DNA from: Aquisediminimonas profunda | GTDB lineage: Bacteria > Pseudomonadota > Alphaproteobacteria > Sphingomonadales > Sphingomonadaceae | DNA length: 64,000 nt | NCBI RefSeq assembly: GCF_019443285.1 | Contig: NZ_CP080327.1 | Location: 372,001 to 436,000 of the forward strand | Direction: 5' to 3' | Translations under genes and position numbers: made by a program | Shown: positions 47,180-64,000 of the stretch, in pieces | How the letters are laid out: each line of letters starts with the position of its first letter | How positions within the stretch are numbered: the first letter of the stretch is position 1 | Notes under the pieces: generated by a model | Told to the model about the DNA's origin: nothing | What the model saw: only the letters and a program-made list of their open reading frames with translations | Database searches by the model: none

Positions 47180-47209
47180 GCGAGGATCTCGTGCGCTTTG
47201 GTTTCCGGC

Positions 47210-48604
47210 TCAGGCCGTCGCCAACAGAGTTTGAAGCTTGGCGATGGCTGGCTCGATGTTCGCCTGATAGCGCGCGAGTTCTGCCAATTCGGCTGTGTCG
47301 CTAGCCTGCAGCCGTGCCGCGCGCGGAGCGACGGCGTCGAGCCGGCAGCTCGCCGTGAAGGCACCGATCTCGGGATTTTGGGCCCATGCCAGGCGAATCG
47401 GCAGCTCCTCGGCCATTCCCTGCAGCCAGCCGCGCGGGTCGCTCGGCATGCAGACGACCTGGCATATCGCGTTTTTTTCCGCATCGCTGGTATAGGCCGC
47501 CTCGACATGGGCGATCAGCGCCGCGCTGAAAACCGGCTGGCACAGCCGCACCTGTTGCAGAACGATCCGGCCGGGCGCGAAGATCGCACAGGGCTCTGGA
47601 TGGACAATCGCACTCGCCGAACAATCGATATGGATCGTCGCGTCATCGGTCGGGATATCGCCGCGTTCGAGCACGATCCGGTCGCGCTCGATCTGCTGCA
47701 CCCGGCCCAGCCGCACCACATTGCCGATCCGCTGCAGCGCCGCGAGTTCGCCTTTGGTGACCGTCGCGCAGTGGTGCAGCCGGGGCGTGACCGCAGGGTC
47801 GAGCCGCAGCACTGAGCCCCTGGCCTCGAGCCGCAGGAACACGTCCTCGACGCTCTCTGCCTGGGCGATCGCTTCGACCTCGTCGGCGATGTAGCGCAGG
47901 GTTGTGACCATGCTTCCGGGCTCGGTCTGGAAATTCGCGCGATCGAACATCCACGAATCGCGCGGCACGATCCAACGGATCCGCTCCGGCTCGGCCCCGT
48001 TCTGCAAGAGCCACAGACAGGCATCCATCCCGGTCTTGCCTGCGCCGATCACGGTGTAGCTCGCATCGGGCCGGGCCAACCGGGGCAGATCGTTGATTGG
48101 CGCGCAGACCACACCATCGGCTACCGCGTAATGTGGCGGGTGGGTGGCGGGGATGTTCGGGCTGAAGCGGGTGGCGTCGACCACCTTGCCGGCGGCGATC
48201 GGGCGCCGGGTGCCCGACAGCCGCGACTCGATGCAGCCGTCCGAAGTGTATTCGCTCAGCGGGAAGAAGCGGACCCGTCCCGAAGGCAGCAGCCGCTGCT
48301 GCATCACCGCTTCGAAATAGCTCACCACTTCCGCGCCCGAAGCAAGTTCGTCGAGCCCGACATTGAACCCGGCGCTGTCCTTGCCTCCCGATCCGAGCGG
48401 GCGCGAACTGACGCCATAGTAGGACGAAGGCTGGTGCAGGCGCACGAACGGATAGGCGTCGTTCCAGTGCCCGCCCGGACGGTGCCGCCGGTCGACGATT
48501 GCGATCGTCGCTTCGCTGTCGGTGAGCAACTGGTCGGCAAACGCCATCCCCGCCGCGCCCGCGCCGACGACAAGATAGTCCGCTTCGATCGGTGTTTTGG
48601 TCAT
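47210..48604 (-). CDS. FAD/NAD(P)-binding oxidoreductase, FMO-like
   Basis: A 464-residue flavoprotein. The Rossmann FAD site is near the start (ADYLVVGAGAAGMAFADQLL), then the HRPGGHWNDAYPFVRLHQPS segment typical of flavin-containing monooxygenase-like proteins, and a second nucleotide-binding segment YTVIGAGKTGMDACLWLLQNGA. The substrate is unknown. The start at 48604 (MTKTPIEADYLV) is chosen because the FAD motif lies 12 residues inside; 55 shadow residues precede it. Codon use is strikingly GC-rich compared with the stretch on its left. Confidence 0.85.
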   Translation of the reverse strand: MTKTPIEADYLVVGAGAAGMAFADQLLTDSEATIAIVDRRHRPGGHWNDAYPFVRLHQPSSYYGVSSRPLGSGGKDSAGFNVGLDELASGAEVVSYFEAVMQQRLLPSGRVRFFPLSEYTSDGCIESRLSGTRRPIAAGKVVDATRFSPNIPATHPPHYAVADGVVCAPINDLPRLARPDASYTVIGAGKTGMDACLWLLQNGAEPERIRWIVPRDSWMFDRANFQTEPGSMVTTLRYIADEVEAIAQAESVEDVFLRLEARGSVLRLDPAVTPRLHHCATVTKGELAALQRIGNVVRLGRVQQIERDRIVLERGDIPTDDATIHIDCSASAIVHPEPCAIFAPGRIVLQQVRLCQPVFSAALIAHVEAAYTSDAEKNAICQVVCMPSDPRGWLQGMAEELPIRLAWAQNPEIGAFTASCRLDAVAPRAARLQASDTAELAELARYQANIEPAIAKLQTLLATA

Positions 48605-50443: not shown

Positions 50444-52201
50444 CTAGGCCCAATTCGGCGCGCGGCTCGTCTGACCGATCCCGGGGTTCATCCGGTTTCC
50501 GGGATCGAGCGTTCGATAGTGCGAGACTAGCTCCGGGCCGGCCGCGTAGAGATGTCCGACATTATGTTCAGCGGGGTAGCGCGCGCCCCGCTGATCAAGC
50601 AACTCAAGCAACTGACGCTTGATTTTGGCTGGATCGCACCCTTTCCTGATCAGATAGTCCTGATGCAAAACGTGGCAGAAGAAGTGCCCATAATATAATT
50701 TGCCTACGATCGCATTCTCGATATCCGACGGCAATGCCTCGAACCACTCACGATCATTGCGGCGCAGCGCGATGTCCAGTGCCAGAATATCCTCGACCAG
50801 ATCCCCTCGAACCGCCCGGTATCGCACAGCGGCTCCAGCAACGACAAAGCGATGTAGGAAGGCTTTGCCTGCCTCATGCGGGTCGCATTCGAACATGTCG
50901 CCAGTCGACGAGGGAAACAAGGTTGCAAGTATGGTTCTTGTCTCGGCAATGGCACTTTCCGGGACCTTGAGGATCAGATGATGTTCGAAGCGATCTCGAA
51001 AGTATCGCATGCGGCGCGGCAGGTGTCGGGGGAGCAGCCGCGATCCTGCCTGGAACAGGCTGTCGATGAGGTTGTCCGGGAGCAACCGCATTTTGGCCGC
51101 CAGGGATTCCAACTTTGCTTTGAGCGCGAACAGGCGAGGAAGGCGCTGAGTTCCAACCAGTTGGATCAGCAGGAATGTATCCTTGCCGAATTCTTCGGCC
51201 AGGTCGAACGCGTCGCGGTGAATGTACTCTGCCGAAATCGGCAACGGCTTGCCCTCGCTCAGCATGGTCCTGCGCAACGCGGTAAGCTCGGCGGTGTTAT
51301 TGGTGCCGACATAGAAAGTTGCCGTGCCTTCCTGTCGGGCAAAAGTATCGAGCCTGACAGCGAAAACCATGATTCTACCGGCGCTTCCCGATGCTTCGTA
51401 AAGCCGCGCGGGATCGCAGTTGTGGCGGGCCGGACTGTCCGAATCTATCGAGCGCACAATCGCCTCATAGTCTTGAGCCGAAGCCACGCGATGGTCGGAT
51501 TGAAGCGCGCTATCCTGCAGTTGCCCCGCCTCGAGCGCCTTCAACATCGTTTCAGGCTCATTCCCCAGCTCGATGCCCAGATGGTTGCAAAATTGAACTT
51601 CGCCTGCTTCGTCCACGCGTGCAAACAACGCGTATTGGGTATAGGCTGGCCCTCTGGATATTAGCGCGCCTCCCGAATTGTTGCAGATCCCGCCTACAAT
51701 AGACGCCCCGAGGCAGGACGACCCGATCACCGAATGGGGTTCGCGACCAAGCGGCACGAGCTTGGCCTCAAGATCATGCAGCGTTGAACCGGACAGGCAG
51801 ACGACCTGATGGCCGCCCAGTATCGGAAAGATGCCCTTGATTCGCAGCGTATTGATGACAACGACAGGCTGGTCGTATTCACCATTGGGCGTCGAACCTC
51901 CAGTCAACCCGGTATTTGCAGCTTGAACTATGACAACACAGCCAGCTGCGATGCTGGCGCAAAATACGCGCCATTGCTCCACCAGAGTGCCCGGCCGCAC
52001 AACGGCCAGGGCAGTGCCGGTGCCTGTCCTGTACCCGGTCAGATAGGGCGCCGCAGCAGACGTCCCTGTTAGCACATGCCTGCTGCCGACAATTGCGCGC
52101 AATCGCTGCAGCAGCAGTTCTTGTTCACCGGCCAGCATTTGTTCGATCATCATGTTGGTCGGCATCGTTCGAGTTGACGGAAGGGCACGGATCCCCAGCA
52201 T
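50444..52201 (-). CDS. dld: Quinone-dependent D-lactate dehydrogenase (Dld-type)
   Basis: A 585-residue FAD enzyme with close similarity to E. coli Dld along its length. It has the FAD-binding PCMH domain with QAANTGLTGGSTPNG and LGREPHSVIGSSCLGASIVGGICNNSGG, then the membrane-associated D-lactate domain with HRDAFDLAEEFGKDTFLLI, ALDIALRRNDREWFEALP, YYGHFFCHVLHQDY and the C-terminal RYPAEHNVGHLYAA ... DPGNRMNPGIGQTS. It oxidises D-lactate or a related D-2-hydroxyacid and passes electrons to quinone. The start is uncertain; ATG at 52165 or 52153 is possible, and none has a clear ribosome site. It lies 24 bases after the MDR gene in the catabolic left arm. Confidence 0.9.
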   Translation of the reverse strand: MLGIRALPSTRTMPTNMMIEQMLAGEQELLLQRLRAIVGSRHVLTGTSAAAPYLTGYRTGTGTALAVVRPGTLVEQWRVFCASIAAGCVVIVQAANTGLTGGSTPNGEYDQPVVVINTLRIKGIFPILGGHQVVCLSGSTLHDLEAKLVPLGREPHSVIGSSCLGASIVGGICNNSGGALISRGPAYTQYALFARVDEAGEVQFCNHLGIELGNEPETMLKALEAGQLQDSALQSDHRVASAQDYEAIVRSIDSDSPARHNCDPARLYEASGSAGRIMVFAVRLDTFARQEGTATFYVGTNNTAELTALRRTMLSEGKPLPISAEYIHRDAFDLAEEFGKDTFLLIQLVGTQRLPRLFALKAKLESLAAKMRLLPDNLIDSLFQAGSRLLPRHLPRRMRYFRDRFEHHLILKVPESAIAETRTILATLFPSSTGDMFECDPHEAGKAFLHRFVVAGAAVRYRAVRGDLVEDILALDIALRRNDREWFEALPSDIENAIVGKLYYGHFFCHVLHQDYLIRKGCDPAKIKRQLLELLDQRGARYPAEHNVGHLYAAGPELVSHYRTLDPGNRMNPGIGQTSRAPNWA

Positions 52202-52225: not shown

Positions 52226-53209
52226 TCAATCGATAAGGATCACGGCATTGCCAATCAGTTGGCCCGCTTCGACCGCCAGATGGGCTTCGACGGCATCTGA
52301 GAGATCAAACTTTGCTGCAATTGCGTGGCACAGCGCGCCGCTGTCCAGCGCGCGTGTCAATCGATCAATCACTTTAGCCCGTTCTTGCACCGACAGCAGA
52401 TAGACCAGCATCATCCGAACCGTGGTGTGGTTGAACATCATCGGACGGAAGGGTATTTCAGGGGTCATATTGGCCGCCGAGCCATATGCTGCGATCACAC
52501 CACCAGCCCCGAGGACCGCGTTGGACACGGCCAGATTGCCTCCGAATTCAACCTCGACGATGCGGTTGACCTTTTTCCCGCCATTCGCCGCAATTATGGC
52601 CTCAGCAACATCGCCCACCCGGTAATTGATCACCGCATGTGCACCCGCCTGCTTGGCCGCCTCTGCCTTTTCCTCTCCGCTCACCGTCGCAATTACCCGC
52701 GCACCTCCCCACCGGGCCAACTGGATGGCATAATGCCCCACTGCGCCAGCGCCACCGGTGACAAGGATCGTCTGTCCATCGACGTCACCGTCGGCGAAGA
52801 CAGCATGGCAGGCCGTGGAGGCGGGAATGCCTAGGCAAGCCCCCGCTTGCCAATCCATGCCGCCAGGCAGCGCGACGGCCTGCCGCGCAGGCAGGCAGAC
52901 CCGCTCGGCGCAGGTACCATCCGCGCGTTGCCATGCGGCATTCCACAACCAGACCCGCTCGCCAATCCGCCCTGCATCAACACCTTCGCCGACCGCATCG
53001 ATTTCGCCGGCCCCGTCCGAGTGCGGAATGACTCGCGGGTATGTGATGGCCCCGCGCGATCCTGCGCGCGCCTTGACGTCCGAAGGGTTAACCCCCGATG
53101 CGCGCACTCGAACCCGCACCTCGCCCGGGCCCGGCGCCGGATCCGCGAGTTCACCATACTTCAGTACCTGAACTGCAGGCCCGACCTCTTCATACCAGAC
53201 AGCGCGCAT
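52226..53209 (-). CDS. Zinc-free NADPH:quinone reductase-like MDR protein
   Basis: A 327-residue medium-chain reductase. It opens MRAVWYEEVGPAVQVLKYGELADPAPGPGEVRVRV, continues SGVNPSDVKARAG and has the nucleotide motif GGAGAVGHYAIQLARWGGARV. The zinc ligands of alcohol dehydrogenases are absent. It is probably a quinone or enone reductase. GGAGG lies just before the ATG at 53209. Position in the catabolic left arm, between the 71-residue gene and dld, suggests a role with that pathway, but no specific step can be named. Confidence 0.88.
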   Translation of the reverse strand: MRAVWYEEVGPAVQVLKYGELADPAPGPGEVRVRVRASGVNPSDVKARAGSRGAITYPRVIPHSDGAGEIDAVGEGVDAGRIGERVWLWNAAWQRADGTCAERVCLPARQAVALPGGMDWQAGACLGIPASTACHAVFADGDVDGQTILVTGGAGAVGHYAIQLARWGGARVIATVSGEEKAEAAKQAGAHAVINYRVGDVAEAIIAANGGKKVNRIVEVEFGGNLAVSNAVLGAGGVIAAYGSAANMTPEIPFRPMMFNHTTVRMMLVYLLSVQERAKVIDRLTRALDSGALCHAIAAKFDLSDAVEAHLAVEAGQLIGNAVILID

Positions 53210-53271
53210 CAATCCTCCATATCGATCGACAGCCCCTCCGCAATGCCATCGAGATTGCCTGAATCGCCAAG

Positions 53272-53533: not shown

Positions 53534-54115
53534 TTACGAGACGGCTGCCATCATTATCTGAATGACCCGGCCGCCTTCTTCGGTTGCCCAGCTCCCGGTC
53601 AATTCGGCCACGATCTGGTTGGTGCCAGCAAGCATGACACCACCCTGCTCCATCCGACGCAGCGCCATGGCCTCGCCAATTTCACCCGGCGATCCGCCCG
53701 CGTCAGCAATTACCTGAACCGCGAAACCCTGTTCGACAAGGCTCAGCGCAGGGAATATGGTGCAGACATCATTGGTTACCCCGGCAAGCACGATATTTTT
53801 GCGCCCCGTAGCCTTTACTGCTGCAGCAAAGCCTTCATCCTCCATGGCGTTGATGATCCCCATACGTTGGATCCGTGACGCGTGCGCTTCGGGCACGGCC
53901 TCGGCCAGTTCATTGAAGATGGGCCCCTGCGTAAAGGCTTCCATGCTCGATGTAATCACGATCGGCATGCCATGGATCTTGGCAACCTTTGCCAGCAGGA
54001 CCGTGTTGCGCTTGAGCAAGTCTTGGGGCATCGAATTGACCCAGCCAATTGTGCCTACCTGATGATCGATAAGCAGCAAAGCCGCGTTGCTTCCATTGAA
54101 TCGTTCGTTTGACAT
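53534..54115 (-). CDS. Isochorismatase-family cysteine hydrolase
   Basis: A 193-residue cysteine hydrolase, closest in pattern to YcaC-type proteins: AALLLIDHQVGTIGWV (catalytic Asp), a Lys-containing loop (ATGRKNIVLAGV) and the nucleophile Cys in GVTNDVCTIFPALS. The fold hydrolyses amides, vinyl ethers or similar bonds; YcaC members have no confirmed substrate. AGGAGG precedes the ATG at 54115. It follows the large 2-oxoacid oxidoreductase gene by 32 bases. Confidence 0.88.
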   Translation of the reverse strand: MSNERFNGSNAALLLIDHQVGTIGWVNSMPQDLLKRNTVLLAKVAKIHGMPIVITSSMEAFTQGPIFNELAEAVPEAHASRIQRMGIINAMEDEGFAAAVKATGRKNIVLAGVTNDVCTIFPALSLVEQGFAVQVIADAGGSPGEIGEAMALRRMEQGGVMLAGTNQIVAELTGSWATEEGGRVIQIMMAAVS

Positions 54116-54147
54116 TATTTCCTCCTTCAGATTCAAATTCAAATTTT

Positions 54148-57100
54148 TTACTTTGTAAATTCTGCGACCAATTTCTTGGATATTTCTTGGGTTCTAATAA
54201 TACTTGCTTCCTTGACATGACCGTAGCCGCGGATTTTTTCTGGGATCTTGGCGATTACAATTGCGGATGCATGATTTTCTGGTGTGAGTCCGGCAGTAAC
54301 GACGCTCATTGATGCTTCGAAATCATCGATGAGCCGGCGCTCTTGCCTGCGTTCTGCGCCGCGCCCAAATGGGTCGAACGCTGTACCGCGCAAAAACTTG
54401 AGCCTCGCGAGAATGCGGAACGGTATCAGGACCCAGGCGCCAAATTCACGTTTGATCAGCTTACCCGTGACCTTATCGCGGCGCGCCAGCAGCGGCGGCG
54501 CCAGATGGAACCGCAGGCGATAGCTGCCGGTAAACTGCGCCTTGAGGTTCGCGAGAAATGGCCCGCCAACGTAAAGCCGTGCGACTTCGTATTCGTCCTT
54601 ATAGGCCATCAGCTTGAAGAAATTCTGGGCAACCGCCTCCGTCAGTGAGGTGCACCCGGGCAGCGCCACATTTTCGGCCGACTGTACCGCCTTGACCAGT
54701 CTCATGTAACGCTCAGCGTAAGCCTGATTTTGATATGCGGTCAGCTCCGCGGCACGGTCGGAAATGACTTCTTCGAGGCTCCGAGGCTGCACCTTCCCAG
54801 TTCTGGAGCCTTGCGCCGAGAGGAGCTGGTCTATCCGCTGCGGATCGTGCGCCCACAGGCGGCCAAGTCTGAACGCGTGAAGGTTGTATGGGACCGAAAG
54901 CCGATTGGCGACGACTGCAGCCTCGATCGCGTCGGCGCTCACCGGGAGCAAGCCCATCTGGCTGGCAAGCCCAACCAGCATCAGGTTTGCGCCGATTGAG
55001 TCTCCGGTCAGAGCTTCCGAAACACTGGTGACATTGTAGAAGCTTGCGCGGTCCTGGCCGCACATGGTCTCAATGGCACTGGCCATCCTGTCACGTGGCA
55101 CCTGAAACTCGGTATCGCGAGTAAATGTGCCGGTTACCGAACGATGGTCATTGATCACCACGCGGCTTAGGCCCAGCTGCAGCAACGATAATGCGTCCTT
55201 TTGTGCGCTTGCGACGAGGTCTGCGCCGAGAAGCACGTCAGCGCGTGACGAAGCGATGCGAGGCGTTCCCAGGCTTTGCTCACTCTGACCGATCTTGATG
55301 TGGCAGAAGACTGCTCCGAACTTCTGAGACATACCTGTCAGATCGAGGATCTGCACGGCAAGGCCCTCGCTCTCGGCCGCCATGCCCAACAACTTGGAAA
55401 TCGTCACCACGCCTGTGCCGCCGATTCCTGCAACAACGATGGCTCGACTTTCAGTGCAATCGACCACCGCGGGCGTCGGCAATTCCTCGAACAGGTTGGC
55501 GTCGGGCGCAGCGGCGGTCGGTTTGGCCAGCGCCCCGCCCTCAATCGTCACAAAACTGGGGCAAAAACCTTTGACGCAGGAAAAATCCTTGTTGCACGAC
55601 GACTGATCGATCGTCCGCTTGCGACCAAACTCGGTATCGAGCGGCTGGATGGAAAGGCAGTTGGATTGAACGCCACAATCCCCGCAGCCTTCACACACCC
55701 GGTCATTGATCACGACCCGCTTTTGCGGATCGATCGCCTTACCGCGCTTGCGCCGACGCCGCAGCTCGGTTGCGCAGGTCTGCTCATAGACAATGACCGA
55801 CACCCCCTTAGCCTCGCGAAGCTCAAGCTGGAGCGCGGTGAGTTCGTCGCGATGGTGCAGGCTGGTACCCGGCGCAAATTCGGCCAGATCGAACTTGTCG
55901 GGATTATCGCTTACCACCAGCACGCGGGCGGCGCCTTCGCTCTTCATCTGATGGGTGATGGCGTGGACGCTGATCGGTCCGTCGACGGGTTGGCCTCCGG
56001 TCATTGCCACCGCGTCGTTGTAAAGGATCTTGTATGTCGCGTTGACCTTGGCTGCGATCGCCTGTCTGATTGCCAATGACCCGGAATGATAGAAGGTACC
56101 ATCGCCGACATTGACAAAGACATGCTCGGTTTCAACGAACGGTGAAGCCCCAACCCAGGCTGCGCCCTCGCCGCCCATTTGTGGATAGGCGACGATGCCG
56201 CGCTCCATGAACATTGCCAAGGTGTGGCAACCGATCCCGGCCAGCTGGTCGCTGCCCTCCGGGACCTTGGTCGAGGTGTTGTGCGGGCATCCCGAACAGA
56301 AATGCGGAGCGCGAATGATTCCCGTAACCGATGCGGCCAGATTACTGTCCAGTACTTCCAGTTCGGCAAGGCGCTTCGAAATCGCCTGCGAGGCATGATA
56401 CGGCTCAAGCCACTTTGCGATCGCCCTTGCGATCAGTGCCGGGGTTAGTTCGCCATGCGAAGGCAGCACGGGCTCGCCGCGCACTGCCTTTCCTGAGACC
56501 TGTATCGCGCGTTCGCCGCACCGGTCGAACAAGGTGGCTTTGACTTGCGGCTCAACGAAGGCCCTGCCCTCTTCAAGCACAATCAGCTCGTCAGCCTCAA
56601 CGGCAAATGCCGCAAGGCCGGAAGGCTCAAGCGGCCAGATGACTCCAAGTTTGAAGACCGCAAGCCCGATTGACCGGGCCCCCCATTCGTCGATGCCCAG
56701 ATTGGCGAGAGCCTCGATCGTGTCGGTGTAGACCTTTCCGTGCGCTATTATCCCCAAGCGACAATTTTCTGGCTGGCCGAATGTCGTACGGTTGAGTCGG
56801 TTGGCGGCGACGAAAGCATGAACTGCCGGCAGGCGCCGCGTGTTCAGCCGCTCGTCCTGATCGACCGATGTATCAGGCCAGCGAATGTGAACGCCGGGGG
56901 GCGCAATCTGATGATCTCTCGGAACCGTAGCCGTGTTTCTCGTGGGATCACAAGCGACGAAAGATGAAGATTCGGCGATATCCGACGTCATCTTGATTGC
57001 CGTCCAGACCCCGGAGTAACGGGACAGCTGCCAGCCTATCAGGCAATAGTCGAAGATGTCCTGAACCGAACTCGCGCTGAATGTGGGAATGCTGAGCGCA

Positions 57101-57582
57101 GAAAGTGCCAGTTCGCTTTGCTGCTGGATGCTGGATGAGCGCGCCATGGGATCATCGCCCACCGCCATGACCACCCCTCCAAGTTCAGAAGTACCCCAAA
57201 GATTGGCATGTCGCAACGCATCGCCAGAGCGATCGAGCCCAGGCCCCTTGCTGTACCACAGTCCGAATACACCCTGAACCTTAGGATCTTTGAAGAAGCC
57301 GACCTGCTGTGATCCCCAGACTGCGGTCGCTGCCAGATCCTCGTTGACCCCCGGCTGGAACGTTATGTTGTTTTCCGACAATTGCGCTTCGGCGGCCCAC
57401 ATTTCCTCATCGACATGGCCCAGCGGAGATCCACGGTAGCCCGAGACAAACCCGCCGGTCCGCAAGCCCAGCGCCGCGTCGCGTGCGGCTTGCTCAAGCA
57501 AAGCCGCAACCAGCACTTCAGTGCCAGAGAGAAACTTCACATCCTTGCGCCCAGTGATTTCAATCCGCTGATGCTCGCCCAT
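54148..57582 (-). CDS. Indolepyruvate:ferredoxin oxidoreductase family, fused alpha-gamma enzyme
   Basis: A 1144-residue 2-oxoacid:ferredoxin oxidoreductase. In order: an alpha-subunit pyrimidine domain (TGGFVSGYRGSPLGHVDEEM), a ThDP-binding region (HFCSGCPHNTS, then GDGTFYHSGSLAIRQAIAA), a cysteine-rich iron-sulfur section (RVCEGCGDCG, SSCNKDFSCVKGFCPSF) and a C-terminal gamma domain with GIGGTGVVTISKLLGMAA. Such enzymes oxidatively decarboxylate 2-oxoacids to acyl-CoA and reduce ferredoxin. Aryl pyruvates are the classic substrates; a sphingomonad relative, EdcC, is reported to act after meta-cleavage in estrogen breakdown (recalled, not checked). It lies in an aromatic cluster with a ferredoxin gene in the same arm. 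Confidence 0.93.
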   Translation of the reverse strand: MGEHQRIEITGRKDVKFLSGTEVLVAALLEQAARDAALGLRTGGFVSGYRGSPLGHVDEEMWAAEAQLSENNITFQPGVNEDLAATAVWGSQQVGFFKDPKVQGVFGLWYSKGPGLDRSGDALRHANLWGTSELGGVVMAVGDDPMARSSSIQQQSELALSALSIPTFSASSVQDIFDYCLIGWQLSRYSGVWTAIKMTSDIAESSSFVACDPTRNTATVPRDHQIAPPGVHIRWPDTSVDQDERLNTRRLPAVHAFVAANRLNRTTFGQPENCRLGIIAHGKVYTDTIEALANLGIDEWGARSIGLAVFKLGVIWPLEPSGLAAFAVEADELIVLEEGRAFVEPQVKATLFDRCGERAIQVSGKAVRGEPVLPSHGELTPALIARAIAKWLEPYHASQAISKRLAELEVLDSNLAASVTGIIRAPHFCSGCPHNTSTKVPEGSDQLAGIGCHTLAMFMERGIVAYPQMGGEGAAWVGASPFVETEHVFVNVGDGTFYHSGSLAIRQAIAAKVNATYKILYNDAVAMTGGQPVDGPISVHAITHQMKSEGAARVLVVSDNPDKFDLAEFAPGTSLHHRDELTALQLELREAKGVSVIVYEQTCATELRRRRKRGKAIDPQKRVVINDRVCEGCGDCGVQSNCLSIQPLDTEFGRKRTIDQSSCNKDFSCVKGFCPSFVTIEGGALAKPTAAAPDANLFEELPTPAVVDCTESRAIVVAGIGGTGVVTISKLLGMAAESEGLAVQILDLTGMSQKFGAVFCHIKIGQSEQSLGTPRIASSRADVLLGADLVASAQKDALSLLQLGLSRVVINDHRSVTGTFTRDTEFQVPRDRMASAIETMCGQDRASFYNVTSVSEALTGDSIGANLMLVGLASQMGLLPVSADAIEAAVVANRLSVPYNLHAFRLGRLWAHDPQRIDQLLSAQGSRTGKVQPRSLEEVISDRAAELTAYQNQAYAERYMRLVKAVQSAENVALPGCTSLTEAVAQNFFKLMAYKDEYEVARLYVGGPFLANLKAQFTGSYRLRFHLAPPLLARRDKVTGKLIKREFGAWVLIPFRILARLKFLRGTAFDPFGRGAERRQERRLIDDFEASMSVVTAGLTPENHASAIVIAKIPEKIRGYGHVKEASIIRTQEISKKLVAEFTK

Positions 57583-57612
57583 CTCAATGCTCTCCCAAGA
57601 TCCGCGCGGTCA

Positions 57613-58434
57613 TCATGTGAAAAATGTGGACACACGGCCGACACCGCCAATGTGCACGCATATGAAGTCGCCGCGCTGCACCGGCTCGACTGGTACAAGT
57701 GAGCCCGACAGCAGCACTTCGCCCGCCTTCAACGAGTGTCCGTATCTGCCGAGGGTATTTGCCAACCAGGCGATGCAGCGCGCCGGCGAACCCAATGCAG
57801 CAGCACCCGCACCAGTGCTGACCACCTCGCCGTTCTTCTCCAGCACCATGCCAAGAGTCACCAGATCGAGCTTGCGCGGGTCGGCAAGCTGATCACCCAT
57901 CACCAAAAGGCCGGATGAAGCGTTGTCCGCAACAGTATCCTCGTATTTGATCCGCCAGTCGGCGATCCGTGAATCAACAATTTCAATGCAGGGAACAATG
58001 CAATCCGTGGCTCTGATAACCTCAGCCACTGTAATCCCCGGCCCGGTAAGGTCGCGCTTGAGAACGAAGGCCAGCTCGCCCTCAACCATCGGCTGGATAA
58101 GCGTCGCCTCGATATCGACGGGGTCACCAGCAAATATCTGCATGGCATCAGTCAGAAATCCAAAATCCGGCTGGTCCACACCGAAGCGACGTTGCACAGC
58201 AACGCTAGTTGCTCCAATTTTCTTGCCTACGAGCCGTTCTCCGTCGTCAATCCGACGTTGCAACTGGTGAAGCGATATCCGGTAGGCATCGTCGAGCGAG
58301 ATTCCGCCAGATCGCTCAGTGAACGGCCGGATAGCGGTCCTTGAGCGCATTGCTGCATAGAGCTCATCGCCGTAGTCGCGGATCTGGTCGTCAGTCATTA
58401 CGCTTGCAATGGTGTCGTGCCAGTGATCTGTCAC
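57613..58434 (-). CDS. 2-Hydroxypenta-2,4-dienoate hydratase (DmpE/BphH-type)
   Basis: A 273-residue hydratase matching DmpE through its length: DELYAAMRSRTAIRPFTER, ISLDDAYRISLHQLQRR, GKKIGATSVAVQRRFGVDQPDFGFLTDAM, the metal-binding acids in EGELAFVLKRDL, and VADNASSGLLVMGD. It hydrates 2-hydroxypentadienoate to 4-hydroxy-2-oxopentanoate after meta-cleavage hydrolysis. The GTG start overlaps the DUF1857 stop (GTGA); an ATG 12 codons in is possible. The usual next enzymes (aldolase DmpG, acylating aldehyde dehydrogenase DmpF) are not within the window. Confidence 0.9.
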   Translation of the reverse strand: MTDHWHDTIASVMTDDQIRDYGDELYAAMRSRTAIRPFTERSGGISLDDAYRISLHQLQRRIDDGERLVGKKIGATSVAVQRRFGVDQPDFGFLTDAMQIFAGDPVDIEATLIQPMVEGELAFVLKRDLTGPGITVAEVIRATDCIVPCIEIVDSRIADWRIKYEDTVADNASSGLLVMGDQLADPRKLDLVTLGMVLEKNGEVVSTGAGAAALGSPARCIAWLANTLGRYGHSLKAGEVLLSGSLVPVEPVQRGDFICVHIGGVGRVSTFFT

Positions 58435-58910
58435 GCGATCTCGCCCGCCGCCAAGAGTTCGCGGGTTCGTGCTAGAGTTGAGCGTAACGCGGCAGCATAT
58501 CCGCGATCTTCGCTGTCAAAGACAGCCTTTGCCTGCTGCTCCTCGGCACCGTTCGGGTCGACATCGGGCAGGCCTATCAGGCAATAGAACTTCAGAAACA
58601 GCTGACCTTCCGCATCCTCGATGATCTCATTGACGATCACGCCTTCGCGTGGACTTATGACCTGATGGAACGACACTTTTCTCTCAGGGACAAAGGAGAT
58701 GAACTCGCAGATGAAGTCCCCCATGATCGTTGCCTCGCGGATGATATAATTCGTTCCCTCGACGGTCACCTCGCAAGCAGAGCATGCTCCGGGCGGGAGA
58801 AACAACCGAGCATCACGCGCCTTTAGCACCAGCCCTTGCCATAGCTGGGCACGCGACAGGACGGACTCTCCTTCCGGATTCACCGGGATCGTCGCCGTTG
58901 AATAGATCAT
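58431..58910 (-). CDS. DUF1857 (AtaL-like, SRPBCC fold) protein
   Basis: A 159-residue protein. Its pattern (SRAQLWQGLVLKARDARLFLPP at 19-40, then TVEGTNYIIREATIMGDFICEFISFVPERKVSFHQV and a long C-terminal helix) matches the DUF1857/AtaL-like SRPBCC family, which has a hydrophobic ligand pocket. Members are uncharacterised apart from a few in secondary metabolism. It starts 22 bases after the ferredoxin gene and is coupled to the hydratase. A role in binding or steering a hydrophobic pathway intermediate is inferred. Confidence 0.78.
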   Translation of the reverse strand: MIYSTATIPVNPEGESVLSRAQLWQGLVLKARDARLFLPPGACSACEVTVEGTNYIIREATIMGDFICEFISFVPERKVSFHQVISPREGVIVNEIIEDAEGQLFLKFYCLIGLPDVDPNGAEEQQAKAVFDSEDRGYAAALRSTLARTRELLAAGEIA

Positions 58911-58932
58911 GCGTTGCGCTCCATTGCTGTGC

Positions 58933-59274
58933 TTATTGACAATTTGGGATGCGAACGATTAGCCCATCCAAATCGGAGGTGACCTCGATTTGGCAACCCA
59001 GTCGACTCATGGGTGTCCGACCTGCCGTGACCTCGTCGAGCATTTCATCTTCGAGTTCGTCGATCAATGGGAGTCGGCTAATCCAGGCCTCATCGACGAG
59101 ACAGTGGCATGTGGCGCAGGCACATTGCCCCCCGCACACGGCTTCGATTCCTTCGATGCCCGCATCGATAGCTCCGCGCATGACGCTCAACCCGATTTCG
59201 ACGTCAACCTTGTGTGCGGTTCCATTTCGCTCGACATAGGTAATGCATGGCATGACTGGTGACCCGTTTTCCAT
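58933..59274 (-). CDS. 2Fe-2S ferredoxin (adrenodoxin/putidaredoxin type)
   Basis: A 113-residue vertebrate-type ferredoxin. Its cluster ligands are C47-or-equivalent through C-x5-C-x2-C (C47, C53, C56 in CGGQCACATC) and C94 in RLGCQIEV. The MPCITYVERNGTAHKVDVEIGLSVM opening is the putidaredoxin/terpredoxin-like start. Such ferredoxins feed P450s or, less often, Rieske oxygenases, suggesting an oxygenase elsewhere in the cluster. ATG 59274 has GAGG upstream; MPCITY at 59253 is an alternative. It is the first gene of the minus-strand arm and is divergent from iclR, 216 bases away. Confidence 0.9.
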   Translation of the reverse strand: MENGSPVMPCITYVERNGTAHKVDVEIGLSVMRGAIDAGIEGIEAVCGGQCACATCHCLVDEAWISRLPLIDELEDEMLDEVTAGRTPMSRLGCQIEVTSDLDGLIVRIPNCQ

Positions 59275-59490
59275 AGCCGCCTCGCCCTGAAGACGGAAAC
59301 ATACCTCCTTCTATTATTTATTATTGGTAAAAGCAATCCTCTATGAGGAATTTTGTGTTTGCTGCGAATCGAGAAGCGCCTCGGTCCGAAAAGCGGAATT
59401 GGCTGCTTTTTCTGATCGGCCAGCAGCGAGGAGGAACTGGCAATTCGTCAAAGTGCATTGTAGTTGAAGTCCAACCAAAAAGGAGGCGAC
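59275..59490. promoter_or_regulatory. Divergent control region, ferredoxin arm and iclR
   Basis: 216 bases holding promoters for both arms. It is AT-rich near 59310-59335. GGAATTGGC (59398-59406) and GGCAATTC (59439-59446) form an imperfect inverted pair, and AAAAGC/GCTTTT arms surround the first. This is a candidate IclR operator; the assignment rests on pattern and position only. Confidence 0.4.
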
Positions 59491-60303
59491 GTGGATAACA
59501 AGCGAGACAAACTAGTCGGTGGAGGACCCCAATCGGCCGGCATCCAGTCGGTCGAGATTGGCATGACCGTCCTCAACGCCTTTGCCGCCTCGTCAGGAGC
59601 GATGTCGCTCAAGCAGGTCAGTCAGGCGACCAGCATGGCGCCGAGCAAGGTGCATCGCTATCTTGCAAGCTTCGTGCGCAGCGGGATGCTGATCCAGAAT
59701 GCGACAAGCGGCCTTTATGACCTTGGCCCCACGGCTCGAAGGCTCGGACTGGCGGCGATGGGCCGACTGGACGCCTTCACGGTCGCAAGCAACGGCCTGC
59801 TCAAGCTGCGCGACTTGACAGGTCATACTGTCTGCATGGCAGTGTGGAGTGAGAGCGGTCCGATACTAGTGCGTTGGGAATCCGGCCAAGAGCCGCTGAT
59901 TCTGAGCCTTAGAATCGGCAGCTCAATCCCGCTTCTGGACACTTCGATCGGCCAAACCTTTCTCGCCTATTTGCCCTCGTCGATAACCGAACCGGCCGTG
60001 AAGTTGCAACAAAAGCTGTCGGGCACCCCGCCCACCCGCACCGTGCTGGACCAGGCCGAACTGGACCAGATTCGTTCGAGCTGCTCTACTTACACGTCTT
60101 CGGCAATGATCAAGGGCGTCGATGCCATTGCCGCACCGGTATTCGAGGCGCCGAACAGGCTGTTTTCGGTGATTACCCTCGCTGCGTCGCATCGCTCGAT
60201 GCAGGGAGCGAAGCTCGACAAAGCACGCCAACAGGTCGAAGCAATCGCGCGCGAGATTTCCCTTGAACTGGGCTGCCCGCAAGGCTGGAGGGCCGCGCCG
60301 TAA
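59491..60303 (+). CDS. IclR family transcriptional regulator
   Basis: A 270-residue regulator: N-terminal winged helix (IGMTVLNAFAASSGAMSLKQVSQATSMAPSKVHRYLASFVRSGML) and a C-terminal GAF-like effector domain (LRDLTGHTVCMAVWSESGPILVRWESG, then the SIPLLDTSIGQTFLAYLP core). IclR proteins in aromatic catabolism act as repressors or activators binding ring-cleavage acids. A GTG start at 59491 with AGGAGG five bases upstream is chosen over an upstream TTG at 59464. It sits between the two arms of the catabolic cluster and ends at a hairpin terminator. Confidence 0.9.
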   Translation: MDNKRDKLVGGGPQSAGIQSVEIGMTVLNAFAASSGAMSLKQVSQATSMAPSKVHRYLASFVRSGMLIQNATSGLYDLGPTARRLGLAAMGRLDAFTVASNGLLKLRDLTGHTVCMAVWSESGPILVRWESGQEPLILSLRIGSSIPLLDTSIGQTFLAYLPSSITEPAVKLQQKLSGTPPTRTVLDQAELDQIRSSCSTYTSSAMIKGVDAIAAPVFEAPNRLFSVITLAASHRSMQGAKLDKARQQVEAIAREISLELGCPQGWRAAP

Positions 60304-60311
60304 ACTTGACC

Positions 60312-60340
60312 CTGGCAAAGGTGCCAGCGTGAGTTTTTAT
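60312..60340 (+). terminator. Probable terminator of iclR
   Basis: A perfect six-pair hairpin CTGGCA-AAGG-TGCCAG (60312-60327) is followed after six bases by TTTTT. It is short and the T-run is offset, so termination may be partial. Confidence 0.55.
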
Positions 60341-60344
60341 TCAT

Positions 60345-60357
60345 CTATACGATATAG
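60345..60357. promoter_or_regulatory. Palindrome CTATA-CGA-TATAG, candidate operator
   Basis: A 13-base palindrome lies 70-82 bases upstream of the first FAH gene and just past the iclR terminator, in an AT-rich patch suited to a promoter. It may be an IclR operator for the right arm. No second copy was seen in the region before the ferredoxin gene. Confidence 0.35.
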
Positions 60358-60426
60358 CTTTACTAATACGTAATTTTGATCTAACCCGGTCACGGCTCGA
60401 TACGAGCGCCATGGGGGACGTTGATT

Positions 60427-61413
60427 GTGAAGCTTGCCACCCTTGATTGCCAAGGAACCACACGCGTCGCAGCAGCTGTCAGCGGCGACCGACTGCTGGT
60501 GCCTTCACTGGCAAATGATCTTTTGGCCGGCGCTGCCGGTTTGCCCCTATCGCTAAAGGGCCTGCTTGCCGAAGATGGTGCGTTGGATCGCCTAAGGACG
60601 ATGGTTGCCCAAGTAGAAGCGGCAGGGACGCAACTGCTCGATGCGCTGGATCAGGCTGGCGCGCTTGTTGCTGGCGCCAAGGCGCGGTTTTGCGCGCCAA
60701 TACCCGATCCCATGCATTTCATGGGCTGCGGCCTGGCTTATCGCCAGCATCTGACGGAAATGGGTGGCGTTCCTGCTCCTGCCAACCCAGTGCTGTTCCT
60801 CTGTTCTCCCGCCGCGATCAGTGCACACCGCGACCCTATCGTGCTGCCAGCACATCAGGGCACGATGGTTGACTACGAGGGTGAGCTGGCGATCGTCATC
60901 GGCCGCCCATGCTACAATGTCGCGCAGTCCGAGGCGATGGATTACGTCGCCGGCTATATGGCGCACAACGACGTTTCGGCGCGAGATCATACGGCCGAGG
61001 TCGCAGCCGTCACGGTTCCGGTCAAGATGTTGGGTGCCTGGTCGCGCAATGTTGGAGGAAAGCAACACCCGGGTTTCTCTCCAATGGGTCCCTATCTTGT
61101 AACCCGCGACGAAATTCCCGATCCACACGCGTTGCACCTGACAGTGCGGGTCAACGGAAATGTGGTCCAGGACGTCACCACCGATGACCTGATCTTCTCA
61201 GTCGCGCACTACGTTTCATACGTCTCTCATTGGTATGCGCTCAGCCCAGGTGACATCATTTCCACCGGATCGCCTGCGGGTGTCGGGATGGCCAAAAAGC
61301 CGCCAGTATTTCTGCAAGATGGCGACATCGTCACAGTGGACATTTCCGGCATCGGAACACTTTCCAACACGATCGTTTCGAATAGCGGAGGCACCTCGGG
61401 CAGGCTCACATGA
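60427..61413 (+). CDS. FAH family hydrolase/isomerase, two-domain
   Basis: A 328-residue fumarylacetoacetate-hydrolase-family enzyme: an N-terminal beta-rich domain (about 1-95) and the FAH core (PDPMHFMGCGLAYRQHLTEMG, metal ligands in DYEGELAIVIG, then GYMAHNDVSARDHT and ISTGSPAGVGM). The metal site (E-x-E...D) is intact. Family reactions include hydrolysis of acylpyruvates, isomerisation and decarboxylation of oxo-acids after ring cleavage. A GTG start at 60427 with GGGGGA upstream is used. It overlaps the second FAH gene by 4 bases. Confidence 0.85.
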   Translation: MKLATLDCQGTTRVAAAVSGDRLLVPSLANDLLAGAAGLPLSLKGLLAEDGALDRLRTMVAQVEAAGTQLLDALDQAGALVAGAKARFCAPIPDPMHFMGCGLAYRQHLTEMGGVPAPANPVLFLCSPAAISAHRDPIVLPAHQGTMVDYEGELAIVIGRPCYNVAQSEAMDYVAGYMAHNDVSARDHTAEVAAVTVPVKMLGAWSRNVGGKQHPGFSPMGPYLVTRDEIPDPHALHLTVRVNGNVVQDVTTDDLIFSVAHYVSYVSHWYALSPGDIISTGSPAGVGMAKKPPVFLQDGDIVTVDISGIGTLSNTIVSNSGGTSGRLT

Positions 61414-62252
61414 AGCTGGCGTCCTATTTGCTGCACGGAGCACCGTCTTTCGGGGTCGTGAACGGCGAAGAGATCGTCGATGTCGGCGGCGAACTCCGCG
61501 AGCGGTATGGCAACCTCAAAAACGCCTTAGAGTCGCTCGGCGAGATTCGATGTGCGACCGAGGGCAAAGCCTCCTTTGGGCGAATTGGCGATACACCGAT
61601 GTTACCGCCTATCCCAGATCCTGGGCGGATCATCTGCATCGGGCGCAACTACCGCGCTGATGCACTGAAGGCGGGTCTTGCAATTCCAGATTATCCGATC
61701 CTTTTCACCAGATACCCCGACTCACAAGTTGGGCATCTGCAACCCATCATTCGTCCATCCGTTTCGGACCAATTCGATTGGGAAGGCGAGCTGGCATTTG
61801 TCATTGGCAAGCCCGGGCGGCGCATATCGATTGAAAACGCTCACTGCCATATCGTGGGCTATGCGTGCTACAACGATGGGAGTTTGCGCGATTATCAGCG
61901 CCACACGACCCAGGATGCACCTGGAAAGAATTTCTGGCGGTCCGGTGCGTTTGGTCCCTGGCTGGTAACAAGCGATGAAATCCCCGACCCAACCGCGTTA
62001 GTTGTAACATCAAGCCTCAATGGCGAGATCATGCAACGCGGGGATGTCGCAGACTTCATCTTCCCGATCCCGGAATTGATTGCCTACCTGTCGTCGATCT
62101 TCCCACTGCAACCGGGCGACGTCATCGCAACTGGAACGCCGCTGGGTTGCGGAACCACTCGCGATCCCAAGATATGGCTGAAACCAGGCGATAGGGTTGA
62201 CGTTTCGATCGAGGGTATCGGCACGCTCACCAATTACGTCGCCGATGAATAG
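61410..62252 (+). CDS. FAH family protein (2-oxohepta-3-ene-1,7-dioate hydratase-like)
   Basis: A 280-residue FAH-fold enzyme: short N-terminal domain, then PIPDPGRIICIGRNYRADALKAG, DWEGELAFVIGKPGRR (metal ligands E and E), GYACYNDGSLRDYQRHTTQ (third ligand D) and VIATGTPLGCG. This is the usual form of 2-keto-4-pentenoate/2-oxohepta-3-ene-1,7-dioate hydratases and acylpyruvases. It is coupled to the preceding paralogue (ATGA), but the two are divergent and not a recent duplication. Substrate unknown. Confidence 0.87.
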   Translation: MKLASYLLHGAPSFGVVNGEEIVDVGGELRERYGNLKNALESLGEIRCATEGKASFGRIGDTPMLPPIPDPGRIICIGRNYRADALKAGLAIPDYPILFTRYPDSQVGHLQPIIRPSVSDQFDWEGELAFVIGKPGRRISIENAHCHIVGYACYNDGSLRDYQRHTTQDAPGKNFWRSGAFGPWLVTSDEIPDPTALVVTSSLNGEIMQRGDVADFIFPIPELIAYLSSIFPLQPGDVIATGTPLGCGTTRDPKIWLKPGDRVDVSIEGIGTLTNYVADE

Positions 62253-62261
62253 GGGTGTCAC

Positions 62262-63008
62262 ATGCCATCGGTCTTGATCACGGGCGCCAACAGCGGCTTG
62301 GGTCTTGAATTCACCCGGCAGCTCCTTCGCCTTGGATGGTCGGTCCACGCCTGCTGCCGCAAGCCCGAGAGAGCAGATGACCTGCGCGCACTAAGAGGCG
62401 GCACACCTGAAAGTTTGAATATTCACGCCGTCGATCTTGCCGATTTCGTCAGCATCGACAACCTCGCAACCAAGTTGGCGAGCGCACCCATCGATCTGCT
62501 CATCAACAATGCAGGTGTCATGGACACAACACCAATCGATTTTTCGGAGGACAACCGCCGGAAAGTCCAGGTCTTCGGCGCCTTGAACCATTCCAGCTGG
62601 AGCGAGGTGTTCCTCATCAATGTCATCGGAACGACGCGCCTCACAGAGGTTGTCCTGCCCAATCTGCAAGCCGGCAGCCAGCGTAAGATCGTGATGATTT
62701 CCAGCATAATGGGTAGTATTGAGGCATGTTCACCCAACCGCTTTCCGCCAGGCGGCGGTTTGTATCTTTACCGGTCCTCCAAGGCCGCACTCAACATGAT
62801 TTCTCGAAATCTTGCTGCGGACCTCGCCAGCTGCGGGTTCACGGTTCTCTCGGTCAACCCGGGGTGGGTGAAGACAGCAATGGGCGGCAGAGATGCCATG
62901 CTCGACCCTGAAACAAGCGTCGGCAACATGATCAAAGTCATCAGCAGTGCGACATCGTCGGACAATGGCAGCTTTATTTCGCATGATGGGGCCCGGCTGC
63001 CTTGGTGA
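62262..63008 (+). CDS. Short-chain dehydrogenase/reductase
   Basis: A 248-residue classical SDR: cofactor motif TGANSGLGLEF (TGxxxGxG) near the start, NNAG at about residue 82, catalytic Ser in MISSIMGS, and Y-x-x-x-K in YRSSKAALNM. The loop after the first beta strand (CCRKPERADDL) has Arg/Lys suited to NADP. It may act as a dihydrodiol or hydroxyacid dehydrogenase in the pathway. It follows the second FAH gene by 9 bases. Confidence 0.9.
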   Translation: MPSVLITGANSGLGLEFTRQLLRLGWSVHACCRKPERADDLRALRGGTPESLNIHAVDLADFVSIDNLATKLASAPIDLLINNAGVMDTTPIDFSEDNRRKVQVFGALNHSSWSEVFLINVIGTTRLTEVVLPNLQAGSQRKIVMISSIMGSIEACSPNRFPPGGGLYLYRSSKAALNMISRNLAADLASCGFTVLSVNPGWVKTAMGGRDAMLDPETSVGNMIKVISSATSSDNGSFISHDGARLPW

Positions 63009-63066
63009 ACCAAAATATCACGTGAGGGCATTTGCCGATCCGAGCAAGAAGAAAGGCAGGTTCAAT

Positions 63067-63900
63067 ATGGTCAATACAAACCCCGAAATCGGCAGGTCAG
63101 TTCAAGCGATGGGACTTGCCACCAACTACCATGAGATGGGTGAAGGCCATTCGATCATTTTGCTACACGGCTCAGGGCCCGGGGTCAGCGCGTGGGCGAA
63201 CTGGGGAAGGACCTTGCCTCGGTTGGCTGAGCACTTCCGGGTTATTGCGCCCGATCTGGCCGGTTACGGACACACTCAACTCGACCCCGATGCGGACTAT
63301 ACAATGGCCTATTGGGTGGAGCATTTGCGTAATTTCATCGACGCCCTCAAGCTCGACAAAGTCTCCTTCGTTGGAAATTCGTTCGGCGGCGCGCTGGCCA
63401 CCAATTTTAATCTGCAGTTTCCTGATCGCGTAGAACGCGCTGCGGTCATGGCGGGGCCGGTGTGCGCCTTCGATGTTACGCCGTCGCTCCACAAAGCCTG
63501 GGGTTACAGCAATCCGACACCTGCACTGATGCGCGAGCTGATGACGATCTTTGCCTATGACCCCAGCATCATCTCGGACGAGCTGGTGCATCTGCGCTAT
63601 GAGGCAAGCAATCGATCCGGTTATCGCGAAGCCTATGAAGCCATGTTCCCGCTGAGCAAACGGCAGGCAATCATCGACGATTGGGGCCTGAGCGATGAGC
63701 AGTTTCAGAGCTTCGGCAACGAATGGTTGTTTCTCCACGGCCTAAACGACTCGATTGTGCCGGTCGAAGTTTCGCTTCGCGCTGCCCGCAACATCACGCG
63801 CTCGCAGGCTCGCTTCTTCAATCGCTGCGGCCATTGGATTATGGTCGAGCAGGCTGATCGTTTCTGTCGTGCACTGATTGAATTCTTCTCTGAAATTTGA
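63067..63900 (+). CDS. Meta-cleavage product hydrolase (BphD/TodF-type alpha/beta hydrolase)
   Basis: A 277-residue alpha/beta hydrolase of the carbon-carbon bond hydrolase group: the oxyanion motif HGSGPGVSAWANW, nucleophile Ser105 in GNSFGGALA, Asp228 in GLNDSIVP and His256 in CGHWIMVEQ. HGSGPG with GNSFGG is characteristic of enzymes that cleave 2-hydroxy-6-oxo-dienoates made by extradiol dioxygenases. The start at 63067 is preceded by AGGCAGG. The extradiol-type gene follows 26 bases later. The two products would be the 2-hydroxypentadienoate used by the hydratase and an acid. Confidence 0.93.
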   Translation: MVNTNPEIGRSVQAMGLATNYHEMGEGHSIILLHGSGPGVSAWANWGRTLPRLAEHFRVIAPDLAGYGHTQLDPDADYTMAYWVEHLRNFIDALKLDKVSFVGNSFGGALATNFNLQFPDRVERAAVMAGPVCAFDVTPSLHKAWGYSNPTPALMRELMTIFAYDPSIISDELVHLRYEASNRSGYREAYEAMFPLSKRQAIIDDWGLSDEQFQSFGNEWLFLHGLNDSIVPVEVSLRAARNITRSQARFFNRCGHWIMVEQADRFCRALIEFFSEI

Positions 63901-63926
63901 CCCAAGCCTAAGGAATGGATCCGCTC

Positions 63927-64000
63927 ATGACCGCTCAAGCAACCAAGTCGATACTCGACCTCAAGTTCCTCTCACACGGCACTCTGGAAGTGCACGATAT
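63927..64000 (+). CDS. Start of a probable VOC-fold (extradiol dioxygenase-like) protein, truncated by the window end
   Basis: Only 24 codons are inside the window (MTAQATKSILDLKFLSHGTL, continuing EVHD). The LSHGTLEV segment is like the first strand of vicinal-oxygen-chelate proteins, where the His can be a metal ligand. AAGGA lies ten bases before the ATG. Its place right after a meta-cleavage-product hydrolase makes a ring-cleavage dioxygenase likely, but the visible sequence cannot prove it. Confidence 0.6.
   Translation, partial: MTAQATKSILDLKFLSHGTLEVHD

Follow-up and report, generated by a model that had tools for sequence, protein, structure and literature searches.

Gene content of the cluster

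The window analyzed here is a stretch of 64,000 nucleotides of Aquisediminimonas profunda (contig NZ_CP080327.1, positions 372,001 to 436,000; the host genome is a single contig of 3.41 Mb), and at its right end lies a meta-cleavage-type gene cluster containing the gene for a fused indolepyruvate-type 2-oxoacid:ferredoxin oxidoreductase (IOR). Coordinates above 64000 continue the window numbering into the flanking DNA, whereas those written C1:n are contig coordinates of the same genome. The genes are arranged in two divergent arms around an IclR-type regulatory gene, with the minus arm running from 59274 to 53534 and the plus arm from 59464 to 65803, ending beyond the window. In order of transcription, they are as follows.

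58933..59274, minus: [2Fe-2S] ferredoxin, ISC type by best model (PF00111 above cut-off, TIGR02007 below cut-off)
58431..58910, minus: AtaL-type SRPBCC protein (PF08982, 81 bits)
57613..58434, minus: DmpE-type 2-hydroxydienoate hydratase, 30 bases upstream of the IOR gene (TIGR03220, 369 bits, below the cut-off of 409)
54148..57582, minus: IOR, 1144 amino acids (NF009589 and NF009588 above cut-off; thiamine pyrophosphate [TPP] and Cys motifs; placed in a tree)
53534..54142, minus: YcaC-like isochorismatase-family hydrolase (PF00857; NF041461, 146 bits, below the cut-off of 310)
59464..60303, plus: IclR-family regulator, between the arms (PF01614, PF09339)
60421..61413, plus: FAH-superfamily enzyme 1 (FAH1), acylpyruvate hydrolase/HpaG-like (PF01557, 216 bits; NF053535, 190 bits, below the cut-off of 500)
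61410..62252, plus: FAH-superfamily enzyme 2 (FAH2; PF01557, 211 bits; best solved structure 8sky)
62262..63008, plus: short-chain dehydrogenase (SDR; PF00106)
63067..63900, plus, start taken as 63067: meta-cleavage-product (MCP) hydrolase, CumD-like (CumD structure 2d0d, E 1e-84; NF045632, 171 bits, below the cut-off of 400; triad motifs)
63915..64409, plus, running past the window end at 64000: small single-domain VOC protein, 164 amino acids (PF00903)
64413..65225, plus: pirin
65264..65803, plus: SnoaL_4 protein

Neighboring genes of the minus arm overlap by 4 bases or are separated by 5 to 30 bases, an operon-like spacing. All genes named in the initial annotation are present where it had placed them; the SRPBCC (AtaL) and isochorismatase genes, which also belong to the minus arm, were not named in it. 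Its two FAH enzymes were likewise recovered, but the FAH-superfamily proteins number three when the DmpE-type hydratase is included. The gene it regarded as a probable VOC dioxygenase does encode a VOC protein, but this gene exceeds the window, and a better dioxygenase candidate is located outside the window at 71220 to 72200. This candidate, a second hydrolase, and a TonB receptor were found when the search was extended past 64000, as had been recommended. The adjoining genes on both sides are listed below.

65865..72200, minus: unit starting at 72200, with the two-domain VOC dioxygenase, TonB receptor, SDR, NmrA-like protein, ABM protein, and SDR
71220..72200, minus: two-domain extradiol dioxygenase of this unit, metal ligands kept
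72232..74960, divergent from the dioxygenase unit: unit of a small open reading frame (ORF) without Pfam match (1e-5), a flavin mononucleotide (FMN) 2-hydroxyacid dehydrogenase, and an HSL-type esterase
72716..73963: the FMN-dependent 2-hydroxyacid dehydrogenase (structure matches to lactate oxidase, glycolate oxidase, and mandelate dehydrogenase)
74046..74960: the HSL-type esterase
75985..76842: second hydrolase, HsaD/BphD-like, paralogue of the CumD-like one
52226..53212, minus: zinc-type quinone/alcohol dehydrogenase (QOR; PF00107, PF08240), membership in the system uncertain
50444..52201, minus: Dld-like D-lactate/2-hydroxyacid dehydrogenase, flavin adenine dinucleotide (FAD) type (PF09330, 435 bits), membership possible but uncertain

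The earlier description as a meta-cleavage-type cluster with both an MCP hydrolase and an IOR is therefore sound, and an extradiol dioxygenase gene adjoins it.

Catalytic motifs

The IOR matches two family models over its full length, with 1468 bits for NF009589 and 1445 bits for NF009588 (cut-offs 816 and 952), and has kept the TPP and Cys motifs. It is, by these sequence criteria, a member of the fused IOR family, and the CoA (coenzyme A)-dependent oxidative decarboxylation of a 2-oxoacid is predicted from family and motifs. The CumD-like hydrolase possesses the nucleophile, acid, and His motifs of a Ser-Asp-His triad. The structures nearest to the two-domain dioxygenase are 3b59 and homoprotocatechuate 2,3-dioxygenases (HPCD); when it was aligned with eight relatives, and also with HPCD, the H/H/E ligands were found in all nine sequences. 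For the small VOC protein, H/H/E is present in six of six aligned sequences, that from this cluster counted, and the solved structures include no close relative (best E 0.013); judged by its sequence, it could be a one-domain dioxygenase. The meaning of the TPP, Cys, nucleophile/acid/His, and H/H/E motifs is presumed here, as are the positions of the dioxygenase ligands and of the hydrolase triad.

Distribution and phylogeny of the IOR

The fused IOR gave a single match in the host genome and none in 12 of 12 congeners, several of which are incomplete assemblies, and so it appears to be accessory. With the host genome included, matches were obtained in 28 of 60 relatives at E 1e-3 and, at E 1e-100, in 82 of 396 genomes from the order. 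The best other match in the order was G357 with 57% identity, followed by one with 50%; in the genome scan, the best match among the 80 loci kept reached 52%.

The careful tree comprised 36 of 142 IOR rows, picked from a quick tree. In this tree the IOR of the cluster and that of G357 form a pair with 100/100 support, so that within the fused family (NF009588/NF009589) the two stand as a distinct pair among the sampled genomes. The initial annotation had allowed for a grouping with general arylpyruvate enzymes; apart from that of G357, the IOR groups with none of the other sampled ones. Four loci were assigned as edc-like by gene content (L178, L192, L193, and L197), the published EdcC sequences staying outside the comparison; their IORs form a clade of their own, again with 100/100 support, and the IOR studied here lies outside it. 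The deep branches are unresolved. A joint clade of the IORs of this cluster, G357, and the edc-like loci was not rejected (p-AU, the approximately unbiased test, 0.39), whereas one with those of L160, L027, and L194 was (p-AU 2e-6), both groups having been named after inspection of the tree. The IOR of L160 belongs to another lineage than the one studied here, and the occurrence of IORs in hydrolytic clusters requires at least two label changes on the tree.

Gene neighborhoods of other IOR loci

Eleven meta-cleavage queries were searched near other IOR genes at E 1e-20, leaving the window and L160 uncounted. At least one query matched in 8 of 61 loci of the order, in 2 of 80 loci of the genome scan, and in none of 40 arbitrary loci of the order (Fisher p 0.02 for 8/61 against 0/40); the query panel was made after L160 and G357 had been seen and partly from their proteins, some loci have short flanks, and the arbitrary loci were placed at round coordinates. 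Since the panel derives in part from G357 and L160, G357 matches DmpF, DmpG, and LigB by identity, while its DmpE match is independent.

The best-annotated related cluster, L160, is located on a plasmid of Sphingopyxis macrogoltabida 203N (NZ_CP013345) and unites in one cluster two ring-hydroxylating oxygenase pairs (one alpha subunit annotated just as SRPBCC), a dioxygenase, an SDR, a hydrolase, DmpEFG, an FAH enzyme, and an IOR. In G357 (L166:9655-14236), the IOR gene is followed about 30 bases on, and on the same strand, by a gene for a 4,5-DOPA-type LigB dioxygenase; DmpEFG, a ferredoxin, and a ferredoxin reductase lie 6 to 12 kb from the IOR gene, and the DmpG shows 82% identity to the annotated one of L160. 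L028 has the order IOR-DmpE-DmpF-DmpG on a single strand, and in L194 the IOR occurs with a hydrolase and an oxygenase alpha-like match. A similar IOR meta-cleavage cluster, with IOR and DmpE adjoining, is found in L027 (G016:C1); it shows apparent decay (a stop in DmpE, a truncated hydrolase match, and a DmpG match in two pieces) and was given less weight. In L115 (Mesorhizobium), a DmpE-type gene is located about 2 kb from the IOR gene, with no DmpF or DmpG match in the 23 kb of this locus. Among the matches listed, DmpE and IOR lie within 20 kb of each other in the host genome, G357, and G016. In the edc-like loci, an extradiol dioxygenase gene precedes the IOR gene on the same strand by at most 0.5 kb, and acyl-CoA dehydrogenase (4/4), enoyl-CoA hydratase (4/4), and thiolase (3/4) genes are present as well, L193 and L178 being the sources of the reference sequences.

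Genes for 2-hydroxyacid dehydrogenases recur as well. In L174 (G177), an FMN 2-hydroxyacid dehydrogenase gene (51% identity to that of the cluster) is divergent from the IOR gene and, by match starts, 160 bases away; an LDHD-like D-2-hydroxyacid dehydrogenase gene (E 1e-148) follows the IOR gene, and an FAH enzyme is encoded about 3 kb away. The same region (L174:7138-19701) also encodes a protein resembling FAD monooxygenases; visual inspection of the translations further points to a Rieske protein, a glutathione S-transferase, and a VOC protein. An FMN dehydrogenase gene near the IOR gene was found in 3 of 62 loci (L174, L187, and L190; 61 loci of the order, G357 included, plus the Sphingopyxis plasmid, with the window uncounted), compared with 0/80 genome-scan IOR loci and 0/40 arbitrary loci of the order. 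Weaker LDHD-type matches occurred in L176, L177, and L178 (29 to 31%) and, over 69 residues, in L039, and none in the arbitrary loci.

Relatives of the ferredoxin are encoded 487 bases (L196, partial match) and 563 bases (L032) upstream of IOR genes; as the sign of a dedicated IOR partner this is weak, a similar gene being present also in 3 of 40 arbitrary loci. AtaL-type SRPBCC matches occurred in 8 of 396 genomes of the order, host genome counted. Relatives of the isochorismatase were found in L135 (47.5%) and L158 (60%), both of which also have VOC and FAH genes, and the small VOC and FAH genes recur with varying sets of SRPBCC/AtaL, isochorismatase, or pirin genes in L135, L136, L137, L157, and L158, five loci in which no IOR match was found. 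A gene for a two-domain extradiol dioxygenase adjoins the small VOC gene in L136 and L137, where an aldehyde dehydrogenase is encoded too. The VOC/FAH block is probably a second reused module.

Proposed pathway

Our tentatively favored explanation is that these genes form a dedicated catabolic cluster, with ring opening by the dioxygenase and hydrolase and conversion of a side-chain 2-oxoacid to an acyl-CoA by the IOR. It builds on the operon-like arms, on the adjoining genes for a dioxygenase, second hydrolase, FMN dehydrogenase, esterase, and TonB receptor, on a hydrolase that is nearest to CumD and has the triad motifs, on the accessory nature of the IOR, on the arrangement in L174, and on L160, where an IOR is joined to a complete hydrolytic pathway. 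From gene content, order, motifs, family matches, and recurrence elsewhere, we infer the reactions, their order, the regulation, the electron acceptor, and the substrate as follows. The cluster would extend from about 50.4 to 76.8 kb, probably under the control of IclR, and would serve the degradation of a side-chain-bearing aromatic compound that may be an ester. A catechol-type intermediate would be opened by the two-domain extradiol dioxygenase (71220-72200), and the ring-fission product would be split by the CumD-like hydrolase (63067-63900) or its paralogue (75985-76842). The dienoate formed would be hydrated by the DmpE-type enzyme, with aldolase and aldehyde dehydrogenase supplied by a distant DmpEFG locus. 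The side-chain 2-hydroxyacid, perhaps released by the esterase (74046-74960), would be oxidized to the 2-oxoacid by the FMN enzyme (72716-73963) and/or the Dld-like enzyme (50444-52201), from which, together with CoA, the IOR would form a one-carbon-shorter acyl-CoA, CO2, and reduced ferredoxin.

The presence of 2-hydroxyacid dehydrogenase genes near IOR genes is suggestive of an IOR fed by a 2-oxoacid other than the ring-fission product; such enzymes would be a natural source of this 2-oxoacid, which suits clusters with both a hydrolase and an IOR. The initial annotation had one and the same product split by hydrolysis or by CoA-dependent decarboxylation. Because 2-hydroxyacid dehydrogenases recur near IORs, we consider this less likely than an IOR acting on another 2-oxoacid.

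The region from 44001 to 84000 was searched for further pathway genes with reference proteins at E 1e-5 (those of the acyl-CoA type taken from L193/L178), and the sole match in this check was the cluster's own dioxygenase. No match was obtained for DmpF or DmpG, for cytochrome P450, or for FAD monooxygenase (one reference); P450, Rieske oxygenase, CoA ligase, and DmpF/DmpG, which the initial annotation had proposed to look for past the window end, are thus undetected in this range. DmpG scored above cut-off once in the genome (C1:2952150), beside DmpF and another DmpE, constituting a DmpEFG set at 2.95 Mb.

Several observations weigh against the side-chain pathway. No match in this range was found for ring-hydroxylating oxygenase alpha subunits (two references) or a VanA-like Rieske protein, leaving no ring-hydroxylating enzyme close to the cluster, nor for acyl-CoA dehydrogenase, thiolase, enoyl-CoA hydratase, or CoA ligase, so that an acyl-CoA product would need to be used elsewhere. 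FAH1, FAH2, the isochorismatase, pirin, and the SRPBCC protein have no assigned step in the proposed route. The FMN dehydrogenase counts are small, in a comparison devised after the window had been seen (p 0.28 against the arbitrary loci, 0.04 against arbitrary and other IOR loci pooled), and in L187 and L190 the gene is 4 to 5 kb from that of the IOR. In the cluster itself, the FMN and Dld genes are located in transcription units apart from that of the IOR, and the Dld-like enzyme may belong to ordinary lactate metabolism. Finally, pairwise comparison of six regions for a shared operator of an IclR regulon yielded only 18-mers with four mismatches, judged to be due to chance.

Alternative explanations

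We rank the side-chain pathway above an EdcC-like step, in which the IOR would act on the 2-oxo tautomer of the ring-fission product to give an acyl-CoA, a route proposed and partly shown for estrogens. According to PMC7793797, EdcC belongs to the IOR family, and its role is supported by genetic and metabolite data. The close spacing of dioxygenase and IOR genes in the edc-like loci and the LigB-type dioxygenase gene beside the closest IOR, that of G357, are consistent with such a step, and a joint clade of the IORs concerned was not rejected. In the present cluster, however, about 14 kb separate the dioxygenase gene from the IOR gene, the two hydrolases would compete for the ring-fission product, the acyl-CoA genes typical of edc-like loci went undetected at 44 to 84 kb, and L160 carries its IOR on top of a complete hydrolytic pathway. 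Taken together, an EdcC-like step appears unlikely, if less so than the explanations that follow.

The IOR might instead act generally on arylpyruvates in amino acid breakdown, its position beside an aromatic cluster being incidental. A role of the IOR family in aromatic amino acid metabolism is mentioned in PMC7793797, and no meta-cleavage genes of the panel were found near the IOR gene in 53 of 61 loci of the order and 78 of 80 elsewhere. The lack of an IOR match in all 12 congeners, the apparent cotranscription with the DmpE-type and ferredoxin genes, and the deep pairing with G357 apart from other enzymes, given in a tree with unresolved deep branches, make this rather improbable.

An aldolase-free exit would have the IOR convert the product of the DmpE-type enzyme, a 4-hydroxy-2-oxoacid, to a 3-hydroxyacyl-CoA and so replace DmpG and DmpF; if true, ring carbon would enter beta-oxidation without pyruvate and free aldehyde. 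The 30 bases between the DmpE-type and IOR genes and the undetected DmpF/DmpG at 44 to 84 kb are in line with it, as are the IOR gene directly followed by DmpE in L028, the adjoining genes of L027, and the DmpE-type gene of L115. Yet DmpF and DmpG accompany four of the six IOR loci that have a DmpE-type gene (L027, L028, L160, and G357; not the window and L115), and the host genome has its DmpEFG set elsewhere, rendering this exit quite improbable.

Similarly hard to credit is cleavage of the ring by the small VOC protein, with the FAH pair acting on an acylpyruvate or trioxo-acid from a trihydroxy aromatic and the two-domain dioxygenase serving another pathway, since the conserved H/H/E and the recurrence with FAH genes are set against the neighboring two-domain dioxygenase gene in L136 and L137, which suggests an accessory role, and against the distance to any solved structure.

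Relation to known systems

With the classical meta pathway of the cumene/biphenyl type (CumD, BphD, DmpE), the cluster has in common an extradiol dioxygenase, a C-C hydrolase nearest to CumD, and a DmpE-type hydratase; it differs in that no ring-hydroxylating oxygenase or DmpFG was detected in the cluster and in the addition of the IOR, the FAH pair, and the SRPBCC protein. Compared with L160, the identities are 38% for the dioxygenase, 42 to 47% for the hydrolase, 48% for DmpE, 43% for FAH2, whose relative lies beside the IOR gene there, and 44% for the IOR; L160 has in addition the two oxygenase pairs, DmpFG, a class II aldolase, and an AMP-binding protein. The combination of an IOR with a hydrolytic meta pathway, put forward as new in the initial annotation, is thus already realized on the Sphingopyxis plasmid.

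The edc cluster of Novosphingobium (Caenibius) tardaugens, as described in PMC7793797 and PMC8700777, resembles the present one in having an IOR-family enzyme, a VOC-type extradiol dioxygenase, a TonB receptor, and divergent operons. It contains P450, acyl-CoA dehydrogenases, MaoC hydratases, thiolases, and a TetR regulator, whereas hydrolases, DmpE, FAH enzymes, and IclR are found here. The evidence in PMC7793797 that EdcC acts on the estrogen ring-fission product consists of gene clusters, an expression strain, and a mass peak; PMC12507874 repeats this role and puts edcC forward as a marker of estrogen degradation in Pseudomonadota. Membership in the edc group, and with it the edc-likeness suggested earlier, was rejected: the IOR lies outside the edc-like clade, and neither acyl-CoA dehydrogenase genes, present in all four edc-like loci, nor other acyl-CoA genes or P450 were detected at 44 to 84 kb. 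A steroid substrate, also suggested, found no support, and a TesB/HsaC route was set aside: the sole steroid marker tested, the HsaC-type dioxygenase, gave three matches in the host genome, the best being the cluster's dioxygenase with 85 bits against a cut-off of 450, and none above cut-off there or in 14 control genomes. A flavonoid pathway was considered because of the VOC and pirin genes; the fde/ifc clusters, as described in PMC11069340, have an FAD monooxygenase and an FdeC/IfcB-type VOC protein. The diterpenoid dit cluster, with its IclR, FAH, and ferredoxin genes, was considered as well, but a literature search on it yielded nothing that bears on the present cluster.

The literature searched, mostly outside subscription journals, describes an IOR as part of ring cleavage in estrogen degradation. 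This pairing, known mainly from estrogen breakdown, is present here in several versions in related bacteria. Because IORs of several well-separated branches occur in hydrolytic meta-cleavage clusters, an IOR together with a dioxygenase is by itself no sign of steroid degradation, and the CoA-forming 2-oxoacid step seems to have been added to aromatic pathways more than once.

Genomic surroundings

At 41989 to 43727, a tRNA-Ala gene is followed by a gene for a large serine recombinase, seemingly without part of its catalytic domain, and a second large serine recombinase is encoded about 50 kb on (92392-94044), with the catabolic genes between both. An attachment repeat around the recombinases was looked for and none was found, and left-flank and right-flank core genes are on different contigs in all six congeners having both (seven searched), so that insertion as a genomic island is unproven. 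The ORF at 46238 to 47815 (525 amino acids, third-position GC 0.69) has no Pfam match.

The nearest P450 match of the genome is at C1:523252, about 87 kb beyond the window end, and the nearest Rieske-oxygenase match (PF00848), of the VanA type, at C1:481446, about 37 kb past the two-domain dioxygenase. The latter region (L169; 109269-115496 in window numbering) encodes a VanA-type Rieske oxygenase and two GCV_T-domain proteins, presumably of the folate-dependent O-demethylase kind, a gene set that suggests demethylation of lignin aromatics. Of the match pieces obtained genome-wide, 5 of 13 for Rieske oxygenases and 3 of 15 for P450 fall within about 70 kb at C1:3128178-3196611, perhaps another catabolic island.

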